Origin: a virus
Strand: one strand, 5' to 3'
IMG/VR virus record: IMGVR_UViG_3300028025_000093
Location: 1-64,000 of that record
DNA length: 64,000 bases
The notes beneath the pieces are model-generated. The model was not told the DNA's origin. It did not search any database and worked only from the letters and a program-made list of their open reading frames with translations. The translations under genes and the position numbers were made by a program. This document shows, in pieces, positions 2,396 through 55,619 of the stretch. The stretch's first letter is position 1. Each line of letters starts with the position of its first letter.

Positions 2396-2869
2396 ATGAT
2401 TAAAAAGATCGCTACAGCGGTGCTTTTTGTCATGACTACATCTATTGCAATGGCACAACCAATTGTAACTGATTCGACAAGTAGATCTACAACAGATTCA
2501 ACTTCAAATAGCACAACAACAGTAAAATCTCCTCCACCAACAGCAGTTGCTCCTGCAGTCACAATTATCAACAGTGATGTTTGCGCAGTTGCCATGTCAG
2601 GTGCAGCTCAAACACAAATTCTTGGTATCTCTTTTGGTGCAACAGTTACAGATAAAAACTGCGAGCGATTAAAGCTAGCACGTTCAGTCTATGATATGGG
2701 CATGAAAGTTGCTGCAGTTTCTATCATGTGTCAAGACGAGCGTGTATTTACAGCAATGTCAAATGCAGGTACACCTTGCCCAGTAGACGGCAAAATCGGT
2801 GAGCAAGCAAAAGCAATCTGGGAAGCTGAACCACAACGTCAACCACAAAAAGTCAAGAGTAAAGACTAA
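2396..2869 (+). CDS. Exported protein of unknown function
   Basis: 157 residues with a clear Sec signal peptide (KK, hydrophobic core, cleavage near AMAQ, residues 18-21). A Ser/Thr-rich linker follows, then a C-terminal domain with three cysteines (near residues 63, 89 and 112) that could form disulfides in the periplasm. It is translationally coupled (TAATG) to the repeat protein that follows; the two probably act together outside the cytoplasm. RBS: AGGAA seven bases upstream. Confidence 0.65.
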   Translation: MIKKIATAVLFVMTTSIAMAQPIVTDSTSRSTTDSTSNSTTTVKSPPPTAVAPAVTIINSDVCAVAMSGAAQTQILGISFGATVTDKNCERLKLARSVYDMGMKVAAVSIMCQDERVFTAMSNAGTPCPVDGKIGEQAKAIWEAEPQRQPQKVKSKD

Positions 2870-14780: not shown

Positions 14781-15192
14781 TGCATTTATGGACACAGCTG
14801 AGAGATTCGCTCAGTTGTCCAGTGCTAAAAGATTACAAGTTGGTGCGGTTGTTGTAAAAGATAATCGTATTATCTCAATTGGATATAATGGAATGCCAGC
14901 TGGGTGGACTAATGAATGTGAAGAAGTTATTGAGGTTCACGAAGATGGTGGGGTTATTACCAAAACAAAAGATGAGGTTATTCATGCTGAAGCAAATGCT
15001 ATTATCAAACTTGCACGTGATGGCGAATCAGGCAATGGTGCCAGTTTATTTTGTACTCATGCTCCTTGCGTACAATGTGCTAAACTAATTTATGGCGCAG
15101 GCATAAGTAAGATGTATTATAGAAATACATATAGAGATACTAGTGGTATTGATTTTTTAATTAAATGTAACATTGAAGTGGAGAAAATATGA
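14761..15192 (+). CDS. cd: dCMP deaminase-like cytidine deaminase
   Basis: 143 residues. The zinc site is complete: HAEANA (His75, Glu77) and PCVQCAK (Cys103, Cys106). The length fits phage dCMP deaminases, which make dUMP for thymidylate synthesis. The start is the ATG 20 bases inside the previous gene; longer starts exist but are not needed for the fold. No thymidylate synthase is present in this window. Confidence 0.85.
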   Translation: MKQKWVDAFMDTAERFAQLSSAKRLQVGAVVVKDNRIISIGYNGMPAGWTNECEEVIEVHEDGGVITKTKDEVIHAEANAIIKLARDGESGNGASLFCTHAPCVQCAKLIYGAGISKMYYRNTYRDTSGIDFLIKCNIEVEKI

Positions 15193-15785
15193 AAACAGTT
15201 GGAGATAAATTACAACCATTCGTGGTTACTGGGGTTAAGCCAGGACAGCCTAAAGATGCTTTCTTTGAAATTAATGAGAAATCATTTGCAGGTAAGTGGA
15301 AAGTTATTGTGTACTATCCAAAGGACTTTACATTCGTGTGTCCTACAGAGATCGTAGCGTATGATAAGTTGTTCCAAGACTTTGAAGATCGTGATGCAGT
15401 TCTATTGACAGGTAGCACAGACAATGAGTTCTGTAAAGTGGCTTGGCAAAATGCACATGCTGACCTAAAGAAAATCAAACACATTCAGTTTGCCGATACA
15501 GTGCGTCGTGGTTTTCAAACTGGTACACACGCAGATAAACTAGGTGAAGATTGCGACTATCGTTGGAATGAAGGTTTGATTGATCAATTGGGTTGTTTCT
15601 ATGAACCTGCTGGCGCAGCATTACGTGCCACATTTATTGTTGATCCAGATAACGTAATTCAGCACGTTACAGTAAACAATCTTAATGTTGGTCGTTCACC
15701 TGAAGAAACATTACGTGTTCTTGATTCTCTACAAACTGGAGAGTTGTGTGCGTGTAATCGTACTGTTGGTGGGGAGACTCTCTAA
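15189..15785 (+). CDS. ahpC: Peroxiredoxin AhpC
   Basis: 198 residues. The peroxidatic Cys51 is in FTFVCPTE. The C-terminal GELCACN offers Cys187 and Cys189 for resolution, the arrangement used when AhpD is the reductant. The reaction reduces H2O2 and organic hydroperoxides. It is followed at once (TAATG) by ahpD, which makes the pair self-consistent. Both are full length, with no sign of decay. Peroxiredoxins in phages are unusual and suggest protection of the infected cell from oxidative damage. Confidence 0.92.
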   Translation: MKTVGDKLQPFVVTGVKPGQPKDAFFEINEKSFAGKWKVIVYYPKDFTFVCPTEIVAYDKLFQDFEDRDAVLLTGSTDNEFCKVAWQNAHADLKKIKHIQFADTVRRGFQTGTHADKLGEDCDYRWNEGLIDQLGCFYEPAGAALRATFIVDPDNVIQHVTVNNLNVGRSPEETLRVLDSLQTGELCACNRTVGGETL

Positions 15786-16291
15786 TGTCATTCAGCGACA
15801 CTATCAAAAGTGCGTTGCCAGAATACGCAAAGGACACCAAGTTAAATCTTGACGCAGTCCTTTTGCGCAGTACACTAGATGCTGATGTTGCCATGGGTTG
15901 TGCCGTGGCTGCATTGGCTGCAACTGGCAATGGTAAAGTATTAAGCATTCTATTGGCAGATGGTCCAGTACACGCAGAGTCAGCAATGACTGCTGCTAGT
16001 ATTATGGCACAAAACAATGTATGGTATCCATATGTTGAAATGGCTGATGATGCTTCACTAAAAGGTTTACCTGCACAACTACGTATGAATGCTATTGCTA
16101 GCCATGGCGGAACTACCAAGTCAAACTTTGAAGCATTCAGTTTAGCCGCAAGTATTGTTGGTAAATGTCACTTCTGTGTCAAGGCACATTATGAAACATT
16201 AAAGCAAGAAGGTTACACAGTAGAGAATCTACGTGACATTGGTCGCATTGCCAGTGTTATGAACTCAGTTGCTAAAGTATTAAATAGTTAA
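15785..16291 (+). CDS. ahpD: Alkyl hydroperoxidase AhpD
   Basis: 168 residues. The active site of the family is complete: Glu116, Cys128, Cys131 (CHFC) and His135. AhpD uses the CxxC dithiol to re-reduce AhpC in bacteria that lack AhpF, and has weak peroxidase activity itself. Start and stop are both shared with neighbours (TAATG on each side), so ahpC and ahpD are one translational unit. Confidence 0.92.
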   Translation: MSFSDTIKSALPEYAKDTKLNLDAVLLRSTLDADVAMGCAVAALAATGNGKVLSILLADGPVHAESAMTAASIMAQNNVWYPYVEMADDASLKGLPAQLRMNAIASHGGTTKSNFEAFSLAASIVGKCHFCVKAHYETLKQEGYTVENLRDIGRIASVMNSVAKVLNS

Positions 16292-20092: not shown

Positions 20093-20482
20093 ATGGCATA
20101 CTCAGATAAAGTAATAGATCACTACGAAAACCCACGCAATGTGGGTTCTTTCTCTAAAGAAGAGGAAGGTGTAGGAACAGGAATGGTTGGTGCACCAGCT
20201 TGTGGTGACGTAATGAAACTACAGATTAAGGTAGATGCAGATGGTATTATTAGAGATGCTCGTTTCAAGACATATGGATGCGGTTCAGCAATCGCCAGTT
20301 CGTCTCTGGTTACAGAGTTGGTTAAGGGTATGCACATTGATGCTGCTACTAACATATCTAACTCTGAGATCGCAGAAGAACTAGCCTTACCTCCAGTTAA
20401 GATTCACTGCTCAATTTTAGCAGAAGATGCAATCAAGGCAGCAGTTGCAGATTATAAAGCAAAGAATGATAACACTAACTGA
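20093..20482 (+). CDS. iscU: Iron-sulfur scaffold IscU
   Basis: 129 residues, same length as bacterial IscU (about 128). All cluster ligands are at their standard positions: Cys37 with Asp39 (PACGD), Cys63 (YGCGSAIAS), His105 and Cys106 (HCSILAEDAI). The IscS/HscA recognition motif LPPVK is present (about residues 99-103). It assembles [2Fe-2S] clusters on a scaffold using sulfur from IscS, which must come from the host. Two A-type carriers follow directly. Confidence 0.93.
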   Translation: MAYSDKVIDHYENPRNVGSFSKEEEGVGTGMVGAPACGDVMKLQIKVDADGIIRDARFKTYGCGSAIASSSLVTELVKGMHIDAATNISNSEIAEELALPPVKIHCSILAEDAIKAAVADYKAKNDNTN

Positions 20483-20786
20483 GGTTGCTGCATCAAAGAT
20501 TACATCTCATCTAACCAAACGAAAAACTGGAATTGGTATTAGGTTAGGTGTTAGAACAACAGGTTGTTCTGGCTTGGCTTATATTTTAGAATTTGCAGAT
20601 AAGTTAGAAGACACAGATGTTGTGTATGAAGATCGTGGTATCAAATTGATTGTCGATCCAAAAAGTTTAGTTTATCTAACTGGAATGATAGTTGATTATA
20701 CACGAAATGGTCTGAATGAAGGATTTGAATTCAGCAACCCAAATGAACGTGACCGATGTGGTTGCGGAGAAAGTTTCAGGATATGA
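20466..20786 (+). CDS. iscA: A-type Fe-S carrier (IscA-like)
   Basis: 106 residues. The three cluster cysteines are present: Cys in GCSGLAY (about residue 36) and CGCGESF at the C-terminus. A-type carriers pass clusters from the scaffold to apo-enzymes. The start is an ATG 17 bases inside iscU, and it ends overlapping the next carrier by four bases. Confidence 0.9.
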   Translation: MITLTEVAASKITSHLTKRKTGIGIRLGVRTTGCSGLAYILEFADKLEDTDVVYEDRGIKLIVDPKSLVYLTGMIVDYTRNGLNEGFEFSNPNERDRCGCGESFRI

Positions 20787-21085
20787 TAACGATCACAGAA
20801 AACGCTACAGCTAAAATCGCAGACTTGTTGGCTGAACACCAAGAGTCTCATTTACGCATCTCAGTGAGGGGTGGTGGTTGCTCTGGTTTCTCGTATGCGT
20901 TTGAATTTGGCGACAAAGAAGAAGATGACTTTGAACTTGGTACAGTTCTTGTCGATGCCATGAGTATGCAGTACTTGCAAGGTGGTACTGTTGACTACAC
21001 TGATGAACTTATGGGTGCTTCATTCAAAGTTTCCAATCCAAATGCAACTAGCACTTGTGGGTGTGGCTCTAGCTTTGCAGCATAA
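20783..21085 (+). CDS. Second A-type Fe-S carrier (IscA/ErpA-like)
   Basis: 100 residues, with GCSGFSY (about residue 33) and STCGCGSSF at the C-terminus, so all three ligand cysteines are kept. It differs clearly from the first carrier in the middle, so it is not a recent duplicate. Together with iscU it forms a three-gene Fe-S unit; it might serve phage or host Fe-S enzymes late in infection. Confidence 0.88.
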   Translation: MITITENATAKIADLLAEHQESHLRISVRGGGCSGFSYAFEFGDKEEDDFELGTVLVDAMSMQYLQGGTVDYTDELMGASFKVSNPNATSTCGCGSSFAA

Positions 21086-21449: not shown

Positions 21450-21523
21450 TCCCGAGTAGTGTAGTGGTAACACACCAGACTTTGACTCTGTTATTGTAAG
21501 TTCGATTCTTACCTCGGGTGCCA
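21450..21523 (+). tRNA. tRNA-Gln(TTG)
   Basis: U1 start with CCCGAG / CTCGGG acceptor pairs, anticodon loop CTTTGAC, TTCGATT T-loop and encoded GCCA end. First gene of the array. It abuts non-coding segment A without spacing. Confidence 0.9.
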
Positions 21524-21596
21524 TAGAGAAGCACATCATTAGCGTGTGGGAGGATGACCGATGCCCACTATGCGTGGTCCAGGTGTGCTTCTCTAT
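21524..21596 (+). ncRNA. Structured RNA segment A (73 nt) between two tRNAs
   Basis: It fills the exact gap between the CCA of tRNA-Gln and the first base of tRNA-Lys. The ends form a perfect 12-bp helix (TAGAGAAGCACA with TGTGCTTCTCTA). Inside, GCGTGTGGG pairs with CCCACTATGC (nine pairs, one bulge), and the loop GACC can pair with downstream GGTC as a pseudoknot. It has no tRNA anticodon or T arm. tRNA 5' and 3' processing would release it as a discrete RNA. Function unknown; T4 has two stable RNAs of unknown function in its tRNA cluster. Confidence 0.6.
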
Positions 21597-21670
21597 GGGA
21601 GTATAACTTAGTGGTAAAGTAACTGGCTTTTAACCAGTAAACCAGAGTTCAATTCTCTGTGCTCCTACCA
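21597..21670 (+). tRNA. tRNA-Lys(TTT)
   Basis: Acceptor GGGAGTA / TGCTCCT, anticodon loop CTTTTAA between ACTGG and CCAGT, encoded ACCA. Confidence 0.93.
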
Positions 21671-21682
21671 GTTTTCTTTGGT

Positions 21683-21756
21683 GTGACTATAGTGTAATGG
21701 TAGCACCCCACACTGTGACTGTGTTAGTATGGGTTCAAATCCCATTAGTCACCCCA
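21683..21756 (+). tRNA. tRNA-His(GTG)
   Basis: Acceptor GTGACTA / TAGTCAC, anticodon loop CTGTGAC, encoded CCCA. The base before position 1 is T, so the G-1 needed for His charging is not encoded and would have to be added. Confidence 0.9.
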
Positions 21757-21767
21757 AAGAGAATTGC

Positions 21768-21843
21768 GCAACTTTAGCTGATGTGGTCATAGCGGTGGTC
21801 TGAAGAGCCATTGAAATAGGTTCGATTCCTATAGGTTGCACCA
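21768..21843 (+). tRNA. tRNA-Phe(GAA)
   Basis: Acceptor GCAACTT / AGGTTGC, anticodon loop CTGAAGA, T-loop TTCGATT, encoded ACCA. Confidence 0.92.
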
Positions 21844-21848
21844 AATAT

Positions 21849-21922
21849 ACCTAGGTAGCTCAATGGTAGAGCAATCGGCTGATAACCGATAGACAGAAGT
21901 TCAATTCTTCTTCTAGGTACCA
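21849..21922 (+). tRNA. tRNA-Ile(GAT)
   Basis: Acceptor ACCTAGG / TCTAGGT, anticodon loop CTGATAA between ATCGG and CCGAT, encoded ACCA. Confidence 0.93.
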
Positions 21923-21928
21923 AGTTTC

Positions 21929-22003
21929 GCCCTTGTATCCTTAATGGTAGAGGTTCGCTCTTGTAAGGCGAGTGATGCGGTTCGATTCCGTACTGGGGCA
22001 CCA
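21929..22003 (+). tRNA. tRNA-Thr(TGT), first copy
   Basis: Acceptor GCCCTTG / CTGGGGC with one mismatch, anticodon loop CTTGTAA, encoded ACCA. A second tRNA with the same anticodon lies at 25016. Confidence 0.9.
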
Positions 22004-22010
22004 AGTTTTT

Positions 22011-22084
22011 CAGGGAATAGGATAGTGGTAGTCGACGAGTCTTGGATACTCGAGGTGGGAGTTCGATTCTCCCTTCCCTGACCA
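22011..22084 (+). tRNA. tRNA-Pro(TGG)
   Basis: Acceptor CAGGGAA / TTCCCTG, anticodon loop CTTGGAT between CGAGT and ACTCG, encoded ACCA. Confidence 0.93.
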
Positions 22085-22090
22085 CGTTTT

Positions 22091-22165
22091 GGGGGCAGTA
22101 GTGGGCTACGGGTAACCCTTGCAAGGTTTCTGTCTAGAAGGGTTCGATTCCCTCGGCTTCCACCA
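22091..22165 (+). tRNA. tRNA-Ala(TGC)-like with miniature D-arm
   Basis: Acceptor GGGGGCA / GGCTTCC (six pairs), anticodon loop CTTGCAA, T-loop TTCGATT, encoded ACCA. The D-arm is only GTAG-TGGG-CTAC (four-base loop), and the variable loop is eight bases, so the overall length stays 75. A canonical tRNA-Ala(TGC) exists at 25558. This one could be decayed, or altered to escape a nuclease or modification enzyme. Confidence 0.6.
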
Positions 22166-22173
22166 AATTTTAC

Positions 22174-22248
22174 ACTGCGTTCGACTTCAGGTGAGGTCAT
22201 CACCCTTTCAAGGTGACTAGATGGGATCGTTACCCATACGCAGTACCA
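22174..22248 (+). tRNA. tRNA-Glu(TTC) with atypical T-loop
   Basis: Acceptor ACTGCGT / ACGCAGT, anticodon loop CTTTCAA between TCACC and GGTGA, encoded ACCA. The T-loop is ATCGTTA instead of TTCGAxx, which swaps the U54-A58 pair to A54-U58. A canonical tRNA-Glu(TTC) lies at 23809. Confidence 0.8.
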
Positions 22249-22253
22249 GTTAT

Positions 22254-22328
22254 GCAGGATTAATTCAGTGGTAGAATGTTTCGTTGCCAACGAAAATGTC
22301 ATCGGTTCAAATCCGATATCCTGCTCCA
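22254..22328 (+). tRNA. tRNA-Gly(GCC)
   Basis: Acceptor GCAGGAT / ATCCTGC, anticodon loop TTGCCAA between TTTCG and CGAAA, encoded TCCA. Confidence 0.93.
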
Positions 22329-22336
22329 GTTAGTAT

Positions 22337-22410
22337 GCCTCGTTAGTTTAATGGTAGAACTCTGCTTTTACACAGCAGTCACGGCAGTTCGATTCTGTCA
22401 CGAGGTACCA
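22337..22410 (+). tRNA. tRNA-Val(TAC)
   Basis: Acceptor GCCTCGT / ACGAGGT, anticodon loop TTTACAC between CTGCT and AGCAG, encoded ACCA. Confidence 0.92.
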
Positions 22411-22416
22411 AGTTAT

Positions 22417-22492
22417 GCCCGATTGGTGAAATGGATGATCATACTGTGCTACGAACGCAGAGGTAGAGGTTCAATTCCTCTATTGGGTACCA
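22417..22492 (+). tRNA. tRNA-Arg(ACG)
   Basis: Acceptor GCCCGAT / ATTGGGT, anticodon loop CTACGAA, encoded ACCA. A34 would need TadA deamination to inosine to read all CGU/CGC/CGA codons. Confidence 0.92.
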
Positions 22493-22498
22493 AGTTAT

Positions 22499-22592
22499 GG
22501 AGAGTAATGCAGCGGGGATGGTCCTGCGACTGGCCTTGAAAACCAGGTTCTGCTTAATCGCGGATGGGGTTCGACTCCTCTGCTCTCCGCCA
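22499..22592 (+). tRNA. tRNA-Ser(TGA)
   Basis: A class II tRNA with a long variable arm. Acceptor GGAGAGT / GCTCTCC, anticodon loop CTTGAAA between CTGGC and ACCAG, encoded GCCA. Confidence 0.93.
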
Positions 22593-22628
22593 ATAACCCT
22601 GTAATTGTAAGGGGATTACAAATATCCC

Positions 22629-22657
22629 TTTACTTTTATAGATGATTGATGTATAAT
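22629..22657 (+). promoter_or_regulatory. Sigma70-type promoter P6
   Basis: TTTACT, 17 bases, TATAAT, in front of the metallophosphoesterase gene inside the tRNA array. AAAGGAG lies between it and the ATG. Confidence 0.75.
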
Positions 22658-22687
22658 AGTGTCTTGATGTTATGAAAGGAGTTGTAT

Positions 22688-23251
22688 ATGCCAAGTGTAT
22701 TTTTAGTAAGCGATACGCACTTTGGTCACGCTGGCGTATGCAGGTTCACGCATGGTGACACTGATGTGAAGATTCGCCCATGGACTGATCCAGATGAGAT
22801 GGATGAAGCAATGGTAAAGATGTGGAACGAAACTGTAAAGCCAACTGATAAAGTTTATCATCTTGGTGACGTAGTTATCAATCGTAAAGCATTGGGAATC
22901 ATGCGTAGGTTAAATGGTGATAAAGTTTTGATTCGTGGTAACCATGACATCTTTCGAGATGATGAGTACCGTGAACATTTTCGTGAGTTACGTGCATACC
23001 ACGTAATGAACGGGATGATCTTAAGCCACATACCGATTCATGAAGAAAGTTTAGGTAGGTTTGGTACTAACATTCATGGGCACTTACACACAAATCGTGT
23101 AATGAAAAATGGTGTTGTTGATCCACGCTACCACTGCGTCTGCGTTGAACAAACAGACTTCAGACCCATCTTGTTTGAAGACGTGATTCAAAGAATCAAA
23201 GACGAAGGTGGTAGCGTGGGTTTCAAGAATGGTAATGGACCTACTATGTAA
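22688..23251 (+). CDS. Calcineurin-like metallophosphoesterase
   Basis: 187 residues with the complete metal-site series: SDTHFGH (residue 8), LGDVV (about 61), RGNHD (about 83), LSHIP (about 114) and HGHLH (about 132). Small single-domain phosphoesterases of this type hydrolyse phosphodiesters or cyclic nucleotides, or act as 5' nucleotidases. Phages use some as nucleases or signalling erasers. It is the only larger gene in the first half of the tRNA array and has its own promoter. Confidence 0.88.
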   Translation: MPSVFLVSDTHFGHAGVCRFTHGDTDVKIRPWTDPDEMDEAMVKMWNETVKPTDKVYHLGDVVINRKALGIMRRLNGDKVLIRGNHDIFRDDEYREHFRELRAYHVMNGMILSHIPIHEESLGRFGTNIHGHLHTNRVMKNGVVDPRYHCVCVEQTDFRPILFEDVIQRIKDEGGSVGFKNGNGPTM

Positions 23252-23321
23252 TTCGTTGCAACTGATCTCAGGGAGTCGTCGTTAGCCTGAGTGAGAATGA
23301 CAAAAATCGTGGCCAAATTTT

Positions 23322-23411
23322 GGAGAGTGGGCAGGATGGTAATGCAGCAGATTGCTAATCTGTAGACTACAGTAATGTGGTCACAGGGTTCGACTCCCTG
23401 ACTCTCCGCCA
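23322..23411 (+). tRNA. tRNA-Ser(GCT)
   Basis: A class II tRNA. Acceptor GGAGAGT / ACTCTCC, anticodon loop TTGCTAA, long variable arm, encoded GCCA. The 70 bases before it hold only a CTCAGG / CCTGAG hairpin (23268-23292). Confidence 0.93.
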
Positions 23412-23420
23412 GTGTTAGTT

Positions 23421-23504
23421 GCGAGTGTGGTGGAATGGTATACACGACGGACTTAAAATCCGTCGCCTTAGGGATTGAGAGTTCGAGTCTCTCCACTCGC
23501 ACCA
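23421..23504 (+). tRNA. tRNA-Leu(TAA)
   Basis: A class II tRNA. Acceptor GCGAGTG / CACTCGC, anticodon loop CTTAAAA, encoded ACCA. Confidence 0.93.
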
Positions 23505-23510
23505 GTTTTT

Positions 23511-23585
23511 GCGGCGATCGTATAACGGATAATACAGTAGGCTTCTACCCTACGAATGAGGGTTCGATTCCTTCTTGCCGCACCA
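23511..23585 (+). tRNA. tRNA-Arg(TCT)
   Basis: Acceptor GCGGCGA / TTGCCGC, anticodon loop CTTCTAC between GTAGG and CCTAC, encoded ACCA. It reads AGA/AGG, codons often rare in the host but common in AT-rich phages. Confidence 0.93.
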
Positions 23586-23591
23586 GTTGTT

Positions 23592-23666
23592 GGGCTGATA
23601 GCTTAATGGTAAAGCGTTCGACTCATAATCGATTGAGTGAGAGTTCAATTCTCTCTCAGCCCACCA
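23592..23666 (+). tRNA. tRNA-Met(CAT), or Ile2
   Basis: Acceptor GGGCTGA / TCAGCCC, anticodon loop CTCATAA, encoded ACCA. Whether C34 is lysidinylated (tRNA-Ile2) cannot be read by eye. It lacks the three G-C pairs of initiator tRNA in the anticodon stem. Confidence 0.88.
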
Positions 23667-23673
23667 AGTTTGT

Positions 23674-23751
23674 GTACGAGTGGCAGAGTGGTCAATTGCA
23701 ACGGATTGCAAATCCGTAAAGTCGTGAGTTCAAATCTCACCTCGTACTCCA
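23674..23751 (+). tRNA. tRNA-Cys(GCA)
   Basis: Acceptor GTACGAG / CTCGTAC, anticodon loop TTGCAAA between ACGGA and TCCGT, encoded TCCA. Confidence 0.92.
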
Positions 23752-23760
23752 AAATAATGC

Positions 23761-23789
23761 TTTACTTTAATTCATTTTTAAAGTATAAT
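23761..23789 (+). promoter_or_regulatory. Sigma70-type promoter P7, internal to the tRNA array
   Basis: TTTACT, 17 bases, TATAAT. Expected start near 23796, 13 bases before tRNA-Glu. It drives the second half of the array. Confidence 0.8.
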
Positions 23790-23808
23790 TGTTTTTATAG
23801 TTAGTTAT

Positions 23809-23883
23809 ACTCTGTTCGTCTATCGGTTAGGACAGCGGGTTTTCAGTCCGCTAAGAGGGGTTCGACTCCCCTACAGAGTACCA
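23809..23883 (+). tRNA. tRNA-Glu(TTC), canonical copy
   Basis: Acceptor ACTCTGT / ACAGAGT, anticodon loop TTTTCAG, T-loop TTCGACT, encoded ACCA. Confidence 0.93.
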
Positions 23884-24028
23884 TTAGTTTAGTGTTATCG
23901 AGGTATCGTTACAGGACGCTGTAACTATGCGGGTCCAACTGTGCGAGGAACGGATCCTAATATAACTGCTAGTCGCTCGCCAGAGGAAGCACCTTTGTTG
24001 GCAAATAGGCAAGATAACACTAAACTAA
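23884..24028 (+). ncRNA. Structured RNA segment B (145 nt)
   Basis: It begins at the base after the tRNA-Glu CCA. The ends pair perfectly for 16 bp (TTAGTTTAGTGTTATC with its complement at 24013-24028). Inside are the hairpin GTTACAG-GACG-CTGTAAC and a second arm CGCCAGAGG...CCTTTGTTGGC. No open frame of note crosses it. It ends six bases before tRNA-Tyr, so tRNA processing would leave a stable, closed RNA. The size is close to T4 stable RNA species 1 (about 140 nt), but no sequence relation was seen. Confidence 0.65.
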
Positions 24029-24034
24029 TGTAAT

Positions 24035-24118
24035 GGAGGTGATGTTCCAATGGTGGGACAGGAGACTGTAAATCTCTGGCCTTACGGCAGGTAGGTTCGA
24101 TCCCTACCACCTCCACCA
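24035..24118 (+). tRNA. tRNA-Tyr(GTA)
   Basis: A class II tRNA. Acceptor GGAGGTG / CACCTCC, anticodon loop CTGTAAA, encoded ACCA. Confidence 0.93.
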
Positions 24119-24126
24119 AGTTTTTA

Positions 24127-24201
24127 GGCTCGTTCGTATAATGGTCATTACGTCGGATTGTCTATCCGATCACGGGAGTTCGATTCTCCCACGAGTCGCC
24201 A
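24127..24201 (+). tRNA. tRNA-Asp(GTC)
   Basis: Acceptor GGCTCGT / ACGAGTC, anticodon loop TTGTCTA between TCGGA and TCCGA, encoded GCCA. Confidence 0.93.
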
Positions 24202-24218
24202 GATAATGAAAGGTAAGT

Positions 24219-24578
24219 ATGTATTGGGGTTATCACTTAATGCTTGATTGTTCTGAATGTGATGTTGATTCGATCAAAGATAAGCAAAACATTTATAACT
24301 TTGTCAAGACATTGGTGAAGGAAATTGATATGGTTGCTCATGGTGAGCCGATTATTGAATTTCTTTGTCCTGGAGATCCTGATAAAGAAGGATATAGTTT
24401 GATGCAGTTGATTACTACATCATCTATCACTGGACATTTTATTGACCACGATAGACATATATACCTAGATGTTTTTAGTTGTAAAGAGTTTGATCCGAGT
24501 GTGGTCAAACGTGTAGTAGAAAAGTTTTTTGGTTCTCGTAAGATGCGAATGAATTTTATTACGAGAAATGCAGGTTGA
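24219..24578 (+). CDS. S-adenosylmethionine decarboxylase-like protein (SpeD-like)
   Basis: 119 residues. The core LMQLITTSSITGHFIDHDRHIYLDVFSCKEF (about residues 62-92) has the layout of SpeD: a TxS segment that could supply the pyruvoyl serine, a His in the position of the catalytic HISIHT stretch, then the DVFSC strand with the Cys. SpeD makes decarboxylated AdoMet for spermidine synthesis. No spermidine synthase is present in the window. The divergence from bacterial SpeD makes the exact reaction uncertain. It sits inside the tRNA array. Confidence 0.65.
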   Translation: MYWGYHLMLDCSECDVDSIKDKQNIYNFVKTLVKEIDMVAHGEPIIEFLCPGDPDKEGYSLMQLITTSSITGHFIDHDRHIYLDVFSCKEFDPSVVKRVVEKFFGSRKMRMNFITRNAG

Positions 24579-24653
24579 TGCGGGAAGTTCAAGTTGAACC
24601 GAATGGTCTCATAAGCCATGTCGAGGGTGGAGCGTTACCATCTCCCGCTACCA
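24579..24653 (+). tRNA. tRNA-Met(CAT)-like, aberrant D-arm and T-loop
   Basis: It starts on the base after the SpeD-like stop codon. Acceptor (T)GCGGGA / TCCCGC(T) leaves a 1-72 mismatch as in initiator tRNA. Anticodon loop CTCATAA, encoded ACCA. The D-arm TTCA-AGT-TGAA lacks the conserved GG, and the T-loop is AGCGTTA, with the A54-U58 swap also seen in tRNA-Glu at 22174. It could be a divergent initiator, an Ile2 tRNA or a non-translating tRNA-like RNA. Confidence 0.55.
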
Positions 24654-24660
24654 GAAAAAA

Positions 24661-24832
24661 GTCCCGCAATGGCTATGACAGATAATCCCTATTCTGTTAT
24701 CCACACTTCTGCGAGGTAGGTGAAAGACCTATCGTAAAAATAGAGTAATGAGTTGCGCCATTACCTACGGATATCAAGCATGAGGATCGTCGTCCAATAT
24801 CAGCTAAGACACAATGTTATCTGTTTAGGGAC
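24661..24832 (+). ncRNA. Structured RNA segment C (about 172 nt)
   Basis: The ends pair as GTCCC/GGGAC and ACAGATAA/TTATCTGT around an internal loop. Arms inside: GGTAGGT-GAAA-GACCTATC with a GAAA tetraloop, GTAATG...CATTAC with an eight-base loop, and GATAT...GGA-TCGTCG-TCC-A-ATATC. Stop codons interrupt all forward frames and no protein was recognised. The borders are inferred from pairing alone. Confidence 0.5.
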
Positions 24833-24839
24833 AGAGAGC

Positions 24840-25011
24840 ATTGTTGAACGTGAATGCAAAAGAAAAGGCAATCCCAACTGTTAGGGAAGAACATCGCTAC
24901 GTTTAGCTATCCAAGATCTGGAGATGATTACTGATGCCAAAGGTAATCTTAATGCCCAAATGTAGTGAGCCCATGGTCGGCTCTTAAAATTGTAACAGTA
25001 CGTTCAACAAT
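24840..25011 (+). ncRNA. Structured RNA segment D (about 172 nt)
   Basis: Closed by a perfect 12-bp helix (ATTGTTGAACGT with ACGTTCAACAAT at 25000-25011). Inside are GAGCC...GGCTC, GATTAC...GTAATC, TCCA-AGATC-TGGA and CCC...GGG hairpins. It ends four bases before tRNA-Thr and has the same span as segment C, with which it is in tandem. No sequence match to RNase P RNA, 6S RNA or a group I intron core was seen. Confidence 0.55.
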
Positions 25012-25015
25012 GTTT

Positions 25016-25089
25016 GCTCTATTAGTATATTGGTATTATTCCTGTTTTGTAGTCAGGTGAAGGTAGTTCGATTCTATCATGGAGCACCA
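25016..25089 (+). tRNA. tRNA-Thr(TGT), second copy
   Basis: Acceptor GCTCTAT / ATGGAGC, anticodon loop TTTGTAG with a mismatched closing pair, T-loop TTCGATT, encoded ACCA. Confidence 0.85.
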
Positions 25090-25090
25090 A

Positions 25091-25165
25091 GGTAATGTAG
25101 CACAGCGGTAGTGCAACTCCTTCATACGGAGTAGGTCGTTAGTTCGAATCTAACCATTACCACCA
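25091..25165 (+). tRNA. tRNA-Met(CAT), or Ile2, second copy
   Basis: Acceptor GGTAATG / CATTACC, anticodon loop TTCATAC between ACTCC and GGAGT, encoded ACCA. With the gene at 23592 it may form the elongator-Met and Ile2 pair. Confidence 0.88.
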
Positions 25166-25182
25166 AGCATAAGTAGTAGTGA

Positions 25183-25266
25183 GCGCAAGTGGTGGAATGG
25201 TATACACGCTGGTCTTAGAAGCCAGTGCCGAAGGGATTGAGAGTTCGAGTCTCTCCTTGCGCACCA
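25183..25266 (+). tRNA. tRNA-Leu(TAG)
   Basis: A class II tRNA. Acceptor GCGCAAG / CTTGCGC, anticodon loop CTTAGAA between CTGGT and GCCAG, encoded ACCA. Confidence 0.93.
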
Positions 25267-25293
25267 AATAACAATAACTGAAAGAGGTTAATC

Positions 25294-25470
25294 ATGGCAA
25301 CAAAAGGTGGTAATCAAAAAACTCGTAAAGCAGATCCAATGCGTACCAAAACAGGTAAAGAACGTCTTGGTCCATTAAATGTGGCACAGTTGACTGCGTT
25401 GAAAGAAAGAACTTCTCAGAAGAAAACCATTGCCAAGATTCAAAAAGAAATAGATCGTAAGTCAAAGTAA
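25294..25470 (+). CDS. Small basic protein within the tRNA array
   Basis: 58 residues, Lys/Arg-rich, starting MATKGGNQKTRKADPMRTKT, with an AAAGAGG ribosome binding site. The C-terminal half is a predicted charged helix. It may bind nucleic acid. No family recognised; its placement between tRNA genes means it shares their transcript. Confidence 0.6.
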   Translation: MATKGGNQKTRKADPMRTKTGKERLGPLNVAQLTALKERTSQKKTIAKIQKEIDRKSK

Positions 25471-25477
25471 AGAATAT

Positions 25478-25552
25478 TCCAAAGTAGCACAGCGGTAGTG
25501 CAGCAGACTGTTAATCTGTTGGTCGATGGTTCGATCCCATCCTTTGGAGCCA
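25478..25552 (+). tRNA. tRNA-Asn(GTT)
   Basis: Acceptor TCCAAAG / CTTTGGA, anticodon loop CTGTTAA, encoded GCCA. Confidence 0.93.
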
Positions 25553-25557
25553 GTATT

Positions 25558-25632
25558 GGGGGATTAGTGATAATGGGAGCACATGTGCTTTGCAAGCATG
25601 AAGTGGGAGTTCGATCCTCCCATCCTCCACCA
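25558..25632 (+). tRNA. tRNA-Ala(TGC), canonical copy
   Basis: Acceptor GGGGGAT / ATCCTCC, anticodon loop TTTGCAA, T-loop TTCGATC, encoded ACCA. Confidence 0.93.
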
Positions 25633-25641
25633 GTTTAGTTT

Positions 25642-25717
25642 GCCCCAGTAGCTCATTTGGTAGAGCAACTGATTAGTAATCAGTAGGTGGGCGGTTCGAA
25701 TCCGTCCTGGGGCACCA
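25642..25717 (+). tRNA. tRNA-Thr(AGT)
   Basis: Acceptor GCCCCAG / CTGGGGC, anticodon loop TTAGTAA between ACTGA and TCAGT, encoded ACCA. AGT anticodons are uncommon in bacteria, where A34 is usually limited to tRNA-Arg(ACG). Confidence 0.9.
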
Positions 25718-25721
25718 ATAT

Positions 25722-25795
25722 ATCTCGATGGTGTAATGGCAGCATAAGTGTCTCCAAAACACTTGGTTGGGGTTCGAGTCCCTATCGGGATGCCA
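25722..25795 (+). tRNA. tRNA-Trp(CCA)
   Basis: Acceptor ATCTCGA / TCGGGAT, anticodon loop CTCCAAA between AGTGT and ACACT, encoded GCCA. Confidence 0.93.
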
Positions 25796-45728: not shown

Positions 45729-46381
45729 TGAAAACATTTATACATCATGATCTACCCAAACTTGTACGTGACACCAAACCCAATGGTACCAGAGTCTACA
45801 AGACACCATCGGGTTCAGCCTATCCAAGCGTCACCACAGTTACAGGCTTACACTCAGCAAAAGGAATCGCAGAGTGGCGGAAGCGAGTTGGCGAAGCAGA
45901 AGCCAACCGCATCTCCGCAAAAGCCAGTTCAAGGGGAACACGGATTCACCAGTACTGTGAAGACTACCTACGAGGAAACATATTCGAAGCAGATATGTTT
46001 GACCTCCAAATGTTTAACTCAATCAAACCCTTGCTCGACCAAGTTGACAACATTCACTGTTTGGAAGATGCGTTATATTCTGACCACTTACAAGTCGCTG
46101 GAACAGTGGACTGCATCGCAGAGTTCCAAGGTAAACTTAGTGTCATAGATTTTAAAACATCTAGCAAGCCAAAAGATCGTGATGATATTCACAATTACTT
46201 TATGCAGACTGCAGCTTATGCTGTTGCATTTGAAGAACTGACAGGTATCCCTATTGGCAGACTTGTAATCATTATGGCAGTAGACAATGATGATCCTCGT
46301 TGGTTTATTGAAAAGCGAGACAATTGGATTGGTGGATTTAAAAAGCTAAGATTGGATTACAAAAATAAATTTGCTTTATAA
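45728..46381 (+). CDS. PD-(D/E)XK exonuclease, MGME1/RecB-like
   Basis: 217 residues. The nuclease core GTVDCIAEFQGKLSVIDFKTSSK (about 118-140, split by Gly) has the Asp and ExK residues; the N-terminal YPSVTTVTG and RGTRIHQYCEDYL are typical of the phage MGME1-like family. Likely processes single-stranded or recombining DNA. The first 400 bases are more C-rich than neighbours. Its 3' end contains the tmRNA promoter. Confidence 0.8.
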   Translation: MKTFIHHDLPKLVRDTKPNGTRVYKTPSGSAYPSVTTVTGLHSAKGIAEWRKRVGEAEANRISAKASSRGTRIHQYCEDYLRGNIFEADMFDLQMFNSIKPLLDQVDNIHCLEDALYSDHLQVAGTVDCIAEFQGKLSVIDFKTSSKPKDRDDIHNYFMQTAAYAVAFEELTGIPIGRLVIIMAVDNDDPRWFIEKRDNWIGGFKKLRLDYKNKFAL

Positions 46382-46399
46382 ACATATATAAAGTATAAT
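46371..46399 (+). promoter_or_regulatory. Sigma70-type promoter P13 for tmRNA
   Basis: TTGCTT, 17 bases, TATAAT, overlapping the end of the nuclease gene. Expected start near 46406, at the 5' edge of the acceptor piece. Confidence 0.7.
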
Positions 46400-46404
46400 T
46401 AAGG

Positions 46405-46730
46405 TTATTGCTGTATGAAGCAAAGAGAAAAGTGTTCTGGACGAGGGTTCGATTCCCTCCACCTCCACCAAAAGTATATTGACAAACCAGATTAAGTTCA
46501 GGTAGCAAACACGAAAGTGGCAATATACTTCTGATGGGGGTGACTAGGTTTCGACAGGGCAACAAGTAAACAAGTGGACAGCACGGGAATGTGAAACCCG
46601 TAGGATTGGGGAAACTCGGTCGAAGAAGCAAAAAACGTAAATGCAAACGACGCACAGTTCGCTTTAGCAGCCTAAACACTGCTTAGGGTTTCGATAGGTT
46701 TCCTCGTAACAGAATAACCTATCACTAATT
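46405..46730 (+). ncRNA. ssrA: Circularly permuted (two-piece) tmRNA
   Basis: The acceptor piece comes first: T-arm GAGGG-TTCGATT-CCCTC, acceptor strand CACCTCC and ACCA ending at 46470. A 65-base spacer follows, closed by AAGTATATTG / CAATATACTT. The coding piece starts at 46536 with GGGGGTG, which pairs with CACCTCC over seven pairs, and the tRNA-like GACTAGGTTTCGACAGGG. ACAGC at 46578 pairs with GCTGT at 46410 as the long-range helix. The tag frame 46643-46675 encodes ANDAQFALAA and stop. It rescues stalled ribosomes and tags the product for proteolysis. Two-piece tmRNAs are known from alphaproteobacteria, cyanobacteria and some betaproteobacteria. Confidence 0.93.
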
Positions 46731-46740
46731 TAAGGATATT

Positions 46741-47019
46741 ATGCAAATTACACCATTGAAAAATAAAGTTCTTGTTGCTGAAAACAAGACAGAACATAAA
46801 AGTGAATCAGGTATTATTTTGGATGGAGTGAATTCAGTTGCCGTGTCAAAGACAGCTACTGTGTTGGCTATTGGTCCAGATGTAGTTGATGTTGTAGTTG
46901 GAGATGTTGTTTATCTAGAATGGCCAAAGGGTCAGATTGTTAAGATAGGTGATGCTCAACGTGTTATCATTGAAGATAAATATATTGTAGCAGTTTTAGA
47001 AAAGGATACTACTAAATGA
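46741..47019 (+). CDS. 31: GroES-like co-chaperonin (gp31-like)
   Basis: 92 residues, GroES size. ITPLKNKVLVAE at the N-terminus, SGIILDGVN as a shortened mobile loop, then GPDVVDVVVGDVVYLEW and VAVLEK at the end. T4 gp31 replaces GroES so that GroEL can fold the major capsid protein. It follows the tmRNA by about ten bases and overlaps the next gene by four. Confidence 0.85.
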   Translation: MQITPLKNKVLVAENKTEHKSESGIILDGVNSVAVSKTATVLAIGPDVVDVVVGDVVYLEWPKGQIVKIGDAQRVIIEDKYIVAVLEKDTTK

Positions 47020-47623: not shown

Positions 47624-48127
47624 ATGCGAGTATATACAAAAATACTCTTATCGATTGCGTTAATTATATCAATTACTGCGATTGCTGTAAAGCAAAATAA
47701 TGATGGTGATTTAAAAATCGCTTATACAGAACTAACTAAAGACGCTAAGAAACAAATTGATTGTCTTGCTGAAAACATTTATTATGAAGCAGGATGGGAA
47801 CCACCTAGTGGTCAACTTGCAGTTGCTCTGGTTACTTTAAACCGAGTCAACGATCCAAGATTTCCCAAAGACATTTGTAATGTTGTAAAACAAAAGACAC
47901 AAGGTATGTGTCAGTTCTCTTGGTTTTGTGAACCACTTAAACCAAAGAACCAATATGTTTACCGTAAGAATTTAGAAGTAGCGTTATACGCATACGCTAA
48001 TTATGAACGTATACAGGACTTGACTCAAGGTGCTATATACTATCACGCTGATTACGTGAACCCTCGTTGGAAGTTGGAAAAGACTACTACAATTGGTAGA
48101 CATATATTTTATAAGGATTACAAATAA
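47624..48127 (+). CDS. Cell-wall hydrolase, SleB-like
   Basis: 167 residues. An N-terminal hydrophobic segment (about 5-22) may be a signal or signal-arrest anchor. LAENIYYEAGWEPPSGQLAVALVTLNR (about 47-73) carries the catalytic Glu of the SleB/CwlJ hydrolase_2 family, and MCQFSW and a terminal Tyr-rich repeat follow. A lytic transglycosylase acting from the periplasmic side. A third peptidoglycan enzyme in the window. Confidence 0.82.
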   Translation: MRVYTKILLSIALIISITAIAVKQNNDGDLKIAYTELTKDAKKQIDCLAENIYYEAGWEPPSGQLAVALVTLNRVNDPRFPKDICNVVKQKTQGMCQFSWFCEPLKPKNQYVYRKNLEVALYAYANYERIQDLTQGAIYYHADYVNPRWKLEKTTTIGRHIFYKDYK

Positions 48128-48684
48128 TGATGCAAAAACTGAATCTGCAGCTAAAGGATGAGCAATCTGCACATTCATTCTTTTTATTGATGGAAGATAT
48201 TTCATTATCTACCTGCAAACAAGCCATCGAATGGATCCTAGAAGCAAACTTTTCCGAAGAACGACCAGACATGTTAAATCTGTTGGTGTGTTCTCCAGGT
48301 GGTGATTTAAATGCTGCGTTTGCGTTAGTTGACACCATGCGTGGTTCAGCTATTCCAGTTCGCACAATCGGCTTGGGTCAAATTGCATCGGCAGGATTGT
48401 TAATTTTTATCAGTGGCGAAAAGGGTCAACGTATCCTTACCCCAAATACTTCAATTCTATCACATCAATATTCTTGGGGTGCGTTTGGTAAAGAGCATGA
48501 GTTGTTTGCCACTATTAAAGAGTTTGACTTAACCACAAAGCGTATGATTGCTCACTATAAAAAATGCAGTGGTCTTACAGAACAAAAAATTCGTGAAGTG
48601 CTACTTCCACCACAAGACGTTTGGTTGTCTGCCATGGAAGCTAAAAAATTAGGATTATGCGACGATGTTAAAGATCTTAAGTAA
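48127..48684 (+). CDS. ClpP-like serine protease
   Basis: 185 residues. The catalytic Ser88 is in GQIASAGL, the His113 in ILSHQYSWG, and the PGGD segment (57-60) precedes them as in ClpP; the third residue is probably Asp near EAKKLGLCDD. Divergent from host ClpP in the N-terminal loops. It might act on prohead proteins or with a host ClpX; T4-type phages with ClpP-like proteins are known. Confidence 0.8.
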   Translation: MMQKLNLQLKDEQSAHSFFLLMEDISLSTCKQAIEWILEANFSEERPDMLNLLVCSPGGDLNAAFALVDTMRGSAIPVRTIGLGQIASAGLLIFISGEKGQRILTPNTSILSHQYSWGAFGKEHELFATIKEFDLTTKRMIAHYKKCSGLTEQKIREVLLPPQDVWLSAMEAKKLGLCDDVKDLK

Positions 48685-52562: not shown

Positions 52563-54293
52563 TTATGCGAATCTGGTACGAACGTATCGGTTCATAGTCT
52601 GTTCTTGATTGCGAACAGGCAACTGAATAACTTGTCTAGTGTTAGATATGTTTGTGGTTGGTGCATTAACTGCTGTATTGTTACCACCAGAACCACCACC
52701 AGCTGCAGTTCTAGCACTATCGTTTGCTGCAGATTGAGAAGAAACTGCATTGGCTGAACCCATGGCTAATCCCATTGCCGCAATTTTCTCAGTTGGTAAA
52801 GCAGCAATTGCTTTTATTTTGTCAGCATCTATTGAAGAGAATGCCTTTAAGCCGTTACCTAATTTCTCTACACCGATACCAGCTTTTTCAATATTAGCTC
52901 CACTTTCACCAAGAGCAATAATTTGATCAACTGGAGATTTCTGTCCAGAAACTTTTGACAGTAAGCCACCAACCAAGTTACCTACACCAGCAACGGCATT
53001 TGCTGCACCAAACGTAGCCATACCAGCAGATACTGCTATTAAACCAGCACCTACTTGAATTAGATTCATACCATCAACAGCAGCCAATCTTTCAATGGCT
53101 TCAGTGATTGAATTAACAATTGCTACAACTCCTTCAGCAATACCAGAGATAATCTTTTCAGCAGCATTACCGAATGCTTCAATTCCAGGTGCAGCCATTT
53201 CAAGTGCTTTACCAATACCCATAACTGCTAAAGTAACAGCACCAAGACCAATTAGCGTAGCTGGGTTGGCCATAGCAGCCAGTCCCCTAGCCAGTCCAAA
53301 CAATAATGATTGAATACCTTTACCAGCACCTTTGCCCAGAGCAGACAAACCACCACCTAGTGAAGCAAGTCCCAATCCAATACCACCCAAGATTCCACCA
53401 CCTCCACTAGCTTCAGGTGAAGCACCTTTAGCTTTATCACCACCCATTAATGCCGTATTCTTTTCGATCTTTTCAAGAAGTGCACTTTGTGCTTCATCTC
53501 TACGAGCAGATTCCATTTCTTCTTCAGAAACATTGACTGCATCGTTTTGTTCTTTATTTGTAAGTGGAGTTCCAGCCGATTCTGCTTTACCAACTAAACT
53601 TGCACGGATATCTGTTTTAGCAAATGCGTCAGATAGAGTTTCACGTTTTGATATAAGACGTTTACCTTCTGGAGTTGCAGATAATTGTTTCTCTGTTAAA
53701 CCAGTTTCAGATTTTAATTTTTCAATCTGGCTTTCATTGGTTTTAATTTCTTTGGCAGTAGTATTTCTTGCAGCAAAATCTTGACGTAAATCTTTATCAG
53801 ATTTTTCACTTCCAAGTTTACGCTGTTGGTCAACGAACTGTCTTTCAGCAATTTTCTTATTTAAGAAACCACCAACGTTGACTGCCTTAAGTACAGTTGT
53901 TCCTGTTGCTCTTAATGAACCAAACTTATCGCCCAACCCTCTACTCATATTACGGAATTTATCACCTAAACTATCAAATGTCTTGACAGTTTTAGCAATA
54001 TTACCAATAGCCTCAATCATTTCATCACGAGCAACTTGGGCTGCTTTAATATCTTCAAGAGATTCTGCCATACCCTTTGATACTTTTAAAGTTTCTTTTT
54101 GAACTTTAAGCATCTCTTCATTTTCTATCGAAGAAGTTTTATCGGAAGGTTTTAATCCTGCGAGTTGTTCTTCTCTATTTTGTTCCATAATAGTTTGCAT
54201 GGAACGCAATGAAGACAAAGATTCTCGTTGAGCTTCTAGTAGTGATTTAAAATCACTAGACTGAACGTGTACCATTATCGGTGGTTTGGCCAT
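52563..54293 (-). CDS. 29: Tail tape-measure protein (gp29-like)
   Basis: 576 residues, close to T4 gp29 (590). An N-terminal charged helical region with coiled coils (about 1-300) is followed by a Gly/Ala-rich hydrophobic region (about 295-470) and a Ser/Asn-rich tail, the usual tape-measure plan. It directly follows the gp26 frameshift pair, the classical chaperone-tape measure order. It sets tail length and may leave the tube on injection. Confidence 0.78.
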   Translation of the reverse strand: MAKPPIMVHVQSSDFKSLLEAQRESLSSLRSMQTIMEQNREEQLAGLKPSDKTSSIENEEMLKVQKETLKVSKGMAESLEDIKAAQVARDEMIEAIGNIAKTVKTFDSLGDKFRNMSRGLGDKFGSLRATGTTVLKAVNVGGFLNKKIAERQFVDQQRKLGSEKSDKDLRQDFAARNTTAKEIKTNESQIEKLKSETGLTEKQLSATPEGKRLISKRETLSDAFAKTDIRASLVGKAESAGTPLTNKEQNDAVNVSEEEMESARRDEAQSALLEKIEKNTALMGGDKAKGASPEASGGGGILGGIGLGLASLGGGLSALGKGAGKGIQSLLFGLARGLAAMANPATLIGLGAVTLAVMGIGKALEMAAPGIEAFGNAAEKIISGIAEGVVAIVNSITEAIERLAAVDGMNLIQVGAGLIAVSAGMATFGAANAVAGVGNLVGGLLSKVSGQKSPVDQIIALGESGANIEKAGIGVEKLGNGLKAFSSIDADKIKAIAALPTEKIAAMGLAMGSANAVSSQSAANDSARTAAGGGSGGNNTAVNAPTTNISNTRQVIQLPVRNQEQTMNRYVRTRFA

Positions 54294-54304
54294 CTTAGTT
54301 TACC

Positions 54305-54448
54305 TTACTTTCTTTGTGCATCTAATCGTTGTTTTTCTTCTTCTAGATATTTAACTAGCATAGCAACGTAAATCTCTCGCTCAAACGGTATCATACTTTC
54401 AAGTTCATTCAGCGAGTATTTGTGGTACTGCATCAAAGCAAAATTCAT
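54305..54448 (-). CDS. Frameshift extension of the tail chaperone (gp26-T)
   Basis: 47 residues read from its own ATG, or 64 codons when entered from gp26 by a -1 shift on the T8 run at 54489-54496. The frame is open from the slip site through LINLCHDTLYNYYKMNFALM, with no stop, to AQRK. A helical peptide with FEREIYVAMLVKYLEEE. It ends 11 bases before the tape-measure start. Confidence 0.7.
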   Translation of the reverse strand: MNFALMQYHKYSLNELESMIPFEREIYVAMLVKYLEEEKQRLDAQRK

Positions 54449-54486
54449 TTTGTAATAATTATACAAAGTGTCATGACAAAGGTTTA

Positions 54487-55200
54487 TTAAAAAAAACTTT
54501 GAAGACCCTCCAGGGTCTTCTTATGATGCTTTTTACATACAGGACAATCATACTCAACATCTTGTTTCAATCTTGGCATAGTCTCAAAGAACTTTTGTAC
54601 TTTGGCAAACTGCTCAGATGTTAAGTTGTTGATAAAATCTAATAGTTCTTGCTGAGTCTGTTCCTTAGCATAAAACAACTCATCACCCTGATAGATGTAA
54701 TCAATGCACTTGGCAATTATCACAAACAAGTCATCAAGGTTTTCTGTATCTAAAACTTGTAACTGATTCAATACTTGTAGAGTAGGGTACTTCATAACAA
54801 CACCTACATCTCCGAATAGCGAAATATTAGCTTGGTGATCTGGAGACTTTTCTACAGCAATTTTTGTAATGTCAAAAGAGATTTGAACTCTGGCTTTTTC
54901 ATCATCACAAGTATCACATGGAAAAATTAAATCAATAGTTTCCCCAACCGATTTAGCACGTAGTTGAGTGAAGATGTATTCTAGATCAAATGTAGCTAGA
55001 TCATCTGGATTAATGTCCTCAACCACGCAAGACTTAACAACATCTTTAAGAGTGTTGACCATAACAATAGGATCTTCACTCTGTTGAGCAATCATCAATG
55101 CCTTTTCTTCACGAACTAGAAATGGTCTATATTTAATTTCTTTTCCACTAGACGGAATGGTCAACGTATACGTTGGGGTATTACTCATTGGTAAAGCCAT
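54487..55200 (-). CDS. 26: Baseplate/tail assembly chaperone gp26-like
   Basis: 237 residues. KEIKYRPFLVREEKALMIA at the N-terminus and a zinc-ribbon-like end (FPCDTCDDEKA near 114 and YDCPVCKKHHKK near 221) match the T4-type gp26 family. The last codons are AGT TTT TTT TAA, so the stop lies in a T8 slippery run. A minority of ribosomes would shift -1 and add about 64 residues, as in many tailed-phage tail chaperones. Start chosen at the ATG after AAAGGAG. Confidence 0.75.
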   Translation of the reverse strand: MALPMSNTPTYTLTIPSSGKEIKYRPFLVREEKALMIAQQSEDPIVMVNTLKDVVKSCVVEDINPDDLATFDLEYIFTQLRAKSVGETIDLIFPCDTCDDEKARVQISFDITKIAVEKSPDHQANISLFGDVGVVMKYPTLQVLNQLQVLDTENLDDLFVIIAKCIDYIYQGDELFYAKEQTQQELLDFINNLTSEQFAKVQKFFETMPRLKQDVEYDCPVCKKHHKKTLEGLQSFF

Positions 55201-55202
55201 AG

Positions 55203-55619
55203 TCAATCTCCTTTAGTCATATTCTTTATAAGTTTATTCAATTCAGCAGTGCTACCTACAAAGATAGCATTATTGGTTACGTTTTTAGATGAATCTTTTG
55301 GACCATCTAATTTAGATTTCTGTTGGTGCAAATCTAATAACTGTTGGTTTATATCCGCCAACTGTTTTACTAAATTACCTACAACTTCAAATGCACGTGG
55401 GTGCTCAGATTGCTTGGCTACCTCAAGTGCATGCATTAGTGCTTCTTGTCCTTGTGATAGTAGATCGTGTAAATTACCACGTGCTTTGTCAAAGTCATTT
55501 TCAATTTTATCTGATGGCTTTTGAATTAGTTCTCCAGTAGCAGCATCAATAATCTCAACTTCAGTTTTAGTTACCGTTGGGGTATCAAAAACTTCAGATA
55601 ATTTATCATCAAGTTTCAT
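55203..55619 (-). CDS. Small terminase-like protein (gp16-like)
   Basis: 138 residues. Opening LDDKLSEVFDT, the helical DFDKARGNLHDLLSQGQEAL and SEHPRAFEVVGNLVKQLADIN, and AIFVGSTAELNKLI at the end match the small terminase subunit of exo-T-even phages. It would recognise concatemeric DNA for packaging. The position beside gp26 is unlike T4, where gp16 precedes gp17. Confidence 0.7.
   Translation of the reverse strand: MKLDDKLSEVFDTPTVTKTEVEIIDAATGELIQKPSDKIENDFDKARGNLHDLLSQGQEALMHALEVAKQSEHPRAFEVVGNLVKQLADINQQLLDLHQQKSKLDGPKDSSKNVTNNAIFVGSTAELNKLIKNMTKGD

Follow-up and report, generated by a model that had tools for sequence, protein, structure and literature searches.

On the minus strand of the window, by which the whole analysed stretch of 64,000 bases is meant (positions 1-64,000 of IMGVR_UViG_3300028025_000093, itself a record of 161,882 bases that is possibly incomplete), lies a gene for a homologue of gp26, the putative short tail assembly chaperone (TAC-N; 54490-55200, 237 aa), which matches PF12322 (E 3.4e-63) and PHROG 150 (E 2.2e-70), begins with an ATG at 55200 (an in-frame TTG is also present at 55206) and stops at 54489-54487. 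The 3' end of this gene reads CTG GAG GGT CTT CAA AGT TTT TTT TAA, and contains a run of eight T (54496-54489), a slippery heptamer T_TTT_TTT (54490-54496; AGT TTT TTT in the gp26 frame) that is directly followed by the TAA, and, slightly upstream, an internal Shine-Dalgarno (SD)-like element GGAGGG (54507-54512), written into the codons CTG GAG GGT of the stretch encoding LEGLQSFF. A -1 slip on T_TTT_TTT yields ...F-F-LINLCHDTLYNYYKMNFALMQYHKYSLNELESMIPFEREIYVAMLVKYLEEEKQRLDAQRK, i.e., an extension (54305-54490) of 61 codons after the slip, or 64 when the two Phe codons and the stop at 54307-54305 are counted, which together with gp26 would make a product of 298 aa (TAC-NC). This -1 frame opens 31 nt ahead of the gp26 stop and is, therefore, uninterrupted up to the ATG at its codon 15, while 11 nt after its own stop comes the ATG (54293) of an ORF for a presumed tape measure protein (52563-54293, 576 aa). 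Direct reading of the letters thus agrees with a preliminary description of this DNA, according to which gp26 ends AGT TTT TTT TAA within eight T and a -1 slip leads into a 64-codon frame stopping 11 nt before the downstream ORF, and all of the coordinates given there hold.

What the -1 frame encodes is recognizable from a match to the gp51 family, PHROG 634 (“baseplate hub assembly catalyst”; E 4.5e-26). A second match (E 6e-8) covers positions 228-279 of the 282 in PHROG 150 (“baseplate hub”), at the C-terminus of that profile, indicating that some members of the gp26 family already bear the extension in one chain. When the -1 frame was used as a tblastn query, 609 phage records were retrieved at E <= 0.1, and the best alignments of the extension begin at its residue 1 or 2, upstream of the ATG. 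Both PF12322 and PHROG 634 are matched just once in the (possibly incomplete) record.

Loci encoding gp26 were sampled from viral contigs with five queries and supplemented with 20 annotated phage regions, 221 being those with a readable gp26 3' end, from which 94 dereplicated representatives (<90% nucleotide identity) were taken. It was among such relatives that the preliminary description had proposed to look for an interrupted -1 frame or a missing slippery run; none of the 215 complete cases has an interruption in the -1 frame (54-68 codons long), and 219 of the 221 loci have the T_TTT_TTN heptamer in frame among the final gp26 codons, an arrangement which, together with the PHROG 634 match, places the -1 open frame far beyond chance. 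The two exceptions are the Ackermannviridae phage Det7, a Salmonella phage, and the similar Vibrio phage K357, where another slip site near CTTTTCAAG or ATTTTCATT may serve instead; both phages have an open -1 frame, with a match to PHROG 9633 and a weak one to PHROG 634.

The stop codon after the heptamer varies among the 94 representatives (TAA in 41, TAG in 36 and TGA in 17), so the conserved thing is the slip site rather than one stop codon. The first Phe codon is TTT in all 94, the codon preceding it is always NNT (AGT, TCT, GAT, AAT, GCT), and no synonymous change disrupts the heptamer in any representative, whereas elsewhere in the same genes Phe is encoded by TTT 591 and by TTC 338 times (TTC 36%), and Asp/Asn/Ser by NNT 2458 and by NNC 815 times (NNC 25%). 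The naive p for the invariance of the heptamer codons is ~7e-31, a figure that treats the sequences as independent and exceeds the true significance, since the representatives are phylogenetically related. In-frame T_TTT_TT occurs elsewhere in gp26 four times in 18,706 codons, and one of the 79 other FF pairs has the NNT TTT TTY form.

The absence of a stop from the -1 frame upstream of the downstream ATG, to which the preliminary description had drawn attention, was borne out, and the codons lying there turn out to be selected as -1-frame codons. For extension codons 3-14, located after the gp26 stop and before Met15, the pN/pS of window-type sequences is 0.33 in the -1 frame vs. 1.31 and 1.17 in the other two frames, the respective values for the cyanophage arrangement being 0.43 vs. 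1.17 and 0.95. The position of the first ATG in the extension varies from codon 2 to codon 33 (codon 15, inside the conserved domain, is the commonest in the window arrangement), and an SD word before any ATG, GTG or TTG in codons 1-22 was seen in 0 of the 27 representatives of the window's clade. Selection in the -1 frame ahead of any ATG, combined with starts that are neither fixed nor preceded by an SD, is predicted by a frameshift and not by a separate gene.

As to the possible stimulators, GAG GGN is present in all 27 window-clade representatives, with GAGG always exactly 10 nt upstream of the heptamer, and the Glu codon at this site is GAG in 27/27 vs. 26% GAG elsewhere. The duplex with the anti-SD in the window amounts to -9.8 kcal/mol vs. 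about -5.5 expected for synonymous codons, and no start codon is found at SD distance after the GGAGGG element. A 3' stimulatory stem, sought by folding energy, is absent from the window's clade (mean z -0.07), whereas in the cyanophage arrangement, where GAG is less uniform than in the window's clade, the folding energy 3' of the slip site is low (mean z -2.4, with 57% below -2). RNAalifold found no consensus hairpin in 46 cyanophage-type sequences, their low energies having no covariation backing, and the cyanophage hairpins, for want of a common stem, stay a lead. Around the SD-like element of the window there is also a strong hairpin, GAAGACCCUGGAGGGUCUUC, with a perfect inverted repeat, GAAGACCC-TGGA-GGGTCTTC (54501-54520, minus strand), which is stable in the fold of the window and would sequester the SD if formed. 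A phage-encoded S21, a possible frameshift helper, was looked for in the record and is absent from it.

We consider it highly probable that the locus encodes a tail assembly chaperone in two forms via programmed -1 ribosomal frameshifting, as the preliminary description had read the end of gp26, a reading now supported by the homology, conservation and selection analyses. Most ribosomes would terminate at the gp26 stop and release the short form (gp26, TAC-N, 237 aa), while a minority would pause with the anti-Shine-Dalgarno of the host 16S rRNA paired to GGAGGG and the stop codon ahead, move back by one base with two tRNA-Phe on U_UUU_UUU, and read 61 more codons to give the long form (gp26-gp51, TAC-NC, 298 aa). 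The mixture of TAC-N and TAC-NC would probably coat the tape measure protein and recruit tail tube subunits, as lambda G/GT does. That slippage occurs, how frequent it is and that the SD takes part in it, we infer from the sequences; a chaperone function of the gp26/gp51 products is suggested by homology and position, and a long form bridging tape measure and tube by the analogy with lambda.

Separate translation of gp26 and gp51, the latter from its own start codon or by termination-reinitiation, is what the annotations of S-PM2, P-SSM2, S-RSM4, HTVC008M, Mosig, phiM7, Milchi and others imply, and in 18 of the 46 cyanophage-type representatives reinitiation is possible at an ATG (codon 3) that follows the gp26 stop closely; with a start position that is not conserved, starts that lack a preceding SD in the window's clade, and selection in the -1 frame on the codons ahead of the first ATG, however, we deem it improbable that there are two separate proteins, which would also leave the invariant heptamer and the SD 10 nt before it unexplained. 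The gp51 frame could likewise be entered if RNA polymerase slipped on T8 and added one U, and the eight T seen in the window and in 40 of the 94 representatives are of a length at which such slippage is conceivable, but 51 of the 94, L062 from inside the window's clade among them, carry only six T (T_TTT_TTC), and RNA polymerase needs neither the conserved codon register of the ribosomal heptamer nor the fixed-spacing SD of the window's clade, making transcriptional slippage a very improbable source of the long form. As 64 open codons are not rare by themselves in AT-rich DNA, the -1 frame might even be open by chance, or be a degenerate remnant, and not be translated at all; this is contradicted by the PHROG 634 match, by a pN/pS of 0.25-0.33 for the extension in the -1 frame only, and by conservation in 215/215 complete loci, leaving it a practically negligible chance.

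Programmed frameshifting at the end of gp26 also has to be seen against the T4-type phages in which the same two products seem to be obtained differently. Both gp26 (208 aa) and gp51 (249 aa) of phage T6 match PF12322 over its full length, T6 gp26 being the PF12322 part alone and T6 gp51 having PF12322 on residues 1-201 and PHROG 634 on residues 147-246 of its 249; the ~48 extra residues of T6 gp51 align with PHROG 634, also the domain that the window's -1 frame encodes. T6 gp51 is thus an in-frame paralogue of gp26 plus extension, and T4-type phages of this kind get the same two products by gene duplication; the two paralogous T6 genes, gp51 being a continuous fusion, lie on opposite strands (as they do in the Tulanevirus and Biquartavirus phages examined), whereas the window has one gene and a predicted -1 frameshift. 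One gp26 gene with the slip site is found in Schizotequatrovirus XZ1, Ceceduovirus CC2, the rhizobial phages phiM7 and RL2RES, Pseudomonas phage Milchi, pelagiphage HTVC008M and the cyanophages. We take gp26 and gp51 to be the gene names behind the identification of T4-like chaperones in 2022, which is consistent with the homology seen here.

That identification is credited to Vladimirov, Gautam and Davidson 2022 (Virology 566:9-15) in the citing passages of PMC10885494 (PRFect) and PMC12846349 (phage Adele), and the remark of the preliminary description that it was aware of no such account for T4-type phages is, accordingly, outdated. As these passages relay Vladimirov et al. 2022, some T4-like phages dispense with frameshifting and carry two genes, a short one and a long fusion (PMC10885494), and poly-T slippery sequences are known in the TAC-N genes of T4-like phages (PMC12846349); the T4-type chaperones so described resemble those of the window in comprising gp26 alone and gp26 with a C-terminal extension, from the same protein families. 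The frameshift in T4-type phages has, then, very likely been recognised since 2022, and no direct description of a gp26/gp51 frameshift in cyanophages was found in the literature searched. Slightly better than even, in our judgement, are the chances of a wider scenario, in which sister T4-type clades share the slip site and employ different stimulators (the strictly spaced SD for the clade of the window, 3' stem-loops for many cyanophages), and in which Straboviridae such as T6 dropped frameshifting when duplication gave them gene 26 and an in-frame gene 51, while other Straboviridae, XZ1 and CC2, keep the slip site. If true, one could trace how gene duplication replaced recoding. The locus also allows comparisons that bear on why some T4-type phages swapped frameshifting for two genes, and on whether an internal Shine-Dalgarno element alone can set the chaperone ratio.

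The tail assembly chaperone frameshift of long-tailed phages (the lambda G/GT type) was reportedly described by Xu, Hendrix and Duda in 2004, and the window shares with it a short protein and a -1 long form, the first frame carrying the slip site at its 3' end and the (here presumed) tape measure gene following immediately, but differs in that the short form belongs to the gp26 family (PF12322) and the extension to the gp51 family (PHROG 634). With Escherichia coli dnaX, whose internal SD is spaced at roughly 10 nt, it has in common a slippery heptamer with an internal Shine-Dalgarno shortly upstream (GAGG spacing of 10 in 27/27 here), although the heptamer is A_AAA_AAG there and U_UUU_UUU here, where a stop codon follows at once and the window's clade lacks a 3' stem-loop. 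Use of the internal SD in the dnaX frameshift is documented (PMC5600365). A poly-T (GTTTTT) slip site with a -1 frame that is uninterrupted in all genomes and routinely annotated as a separate hypothetical gene has been described for Vandenendeviridae/Andersonviridae (PMC12846349), phage families other than the window's.

As modelled by AlphaFold (pLDDT 86), the window's gp26 strongly matches models of T4-type baseplate hub proteins, and its highest-probability PDB match is the HK97 tail assembly chaperone 2ob9, a non-significant one (probability 0.69, E 0.64, TM 0.47 by target). Sequence searches of the PDB returned no match for gp26, for the extension or for the presumed tape measure, nor did a Pfam scan of the locus match other tail chaperone families. 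The 576-aa ORF is presumed to be the tape measure on the grounds of its position and composition, and in HTVC008M the gene downstream of gp26/gp51 is annotated as “putative tail tape measure”. The protein has no family match in Pfam or PHROG, and tblastn against 50,697 phage records gave one weak match (Microcystis phage Mel-JY01, 22% coverage), so poorly is it matched though its neighbours are well conserved.

Current annotations name the gp26 and gp51 proteins baseplate hub parts, and all of the frameshift-type records inspected annotate gp51 either as a separate gene or not at all, which means that a common group of aquatic phages is in need of corrected annotation: the “gp51, baseplate hub assembly catalyst” of cyanophages, pelagiphages and this aquatic phage is very probably the frameshifted tail end of the gp26 chaperone and not a separate enzyme. 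The kind of frameshift is already known, and what is added here are a test of the slip site across lineages, the evidence of selection ahead of the ATG, the fixed-spacing SD in the window's clade and a gp51 that very probably does not stand alone, the fresher points being the difference in stimulators between clades and how widespread the two-gene annotation is.

Elsewhere in the window (all on the plus strand), an array of 27 tRNA genes (21450-25795) includes a tRNA-Phe(GAA) at 21768-21843, which decodes the slip-site codons. A phage-encoded permuted tmRNA at 46357-46766 (Rfam tmRNA_permuted 126 bits, beta_tmRNA 109 bits; ARAGORN tag ANDAQFALAA) is of a type that points to a betaproteobacterial host or to a gene acquired from one; it is adjoined by a GroES-type co-chaperonin (46741-47019; PF00166, E 3.1e-12) and has a ClpP-type protease nearby (48127-48684; PF00574, E 5.4e-28), tmRNA tagging, ClpP and a co-chaperonin in one phage segment making a suggestive set. 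An ORF of 702 aa at 2869-4977 has several imperfect repeats of the QQCSLNPLYSTTCPGYAAAY type and no Pfam match, and by eye, 15189-16291 and 20093-21085 hold peroxiredoxin-like and AhpD-type ORFs, as well as an ORF resembling IscU, after which come two that resemble IscA/HesB.
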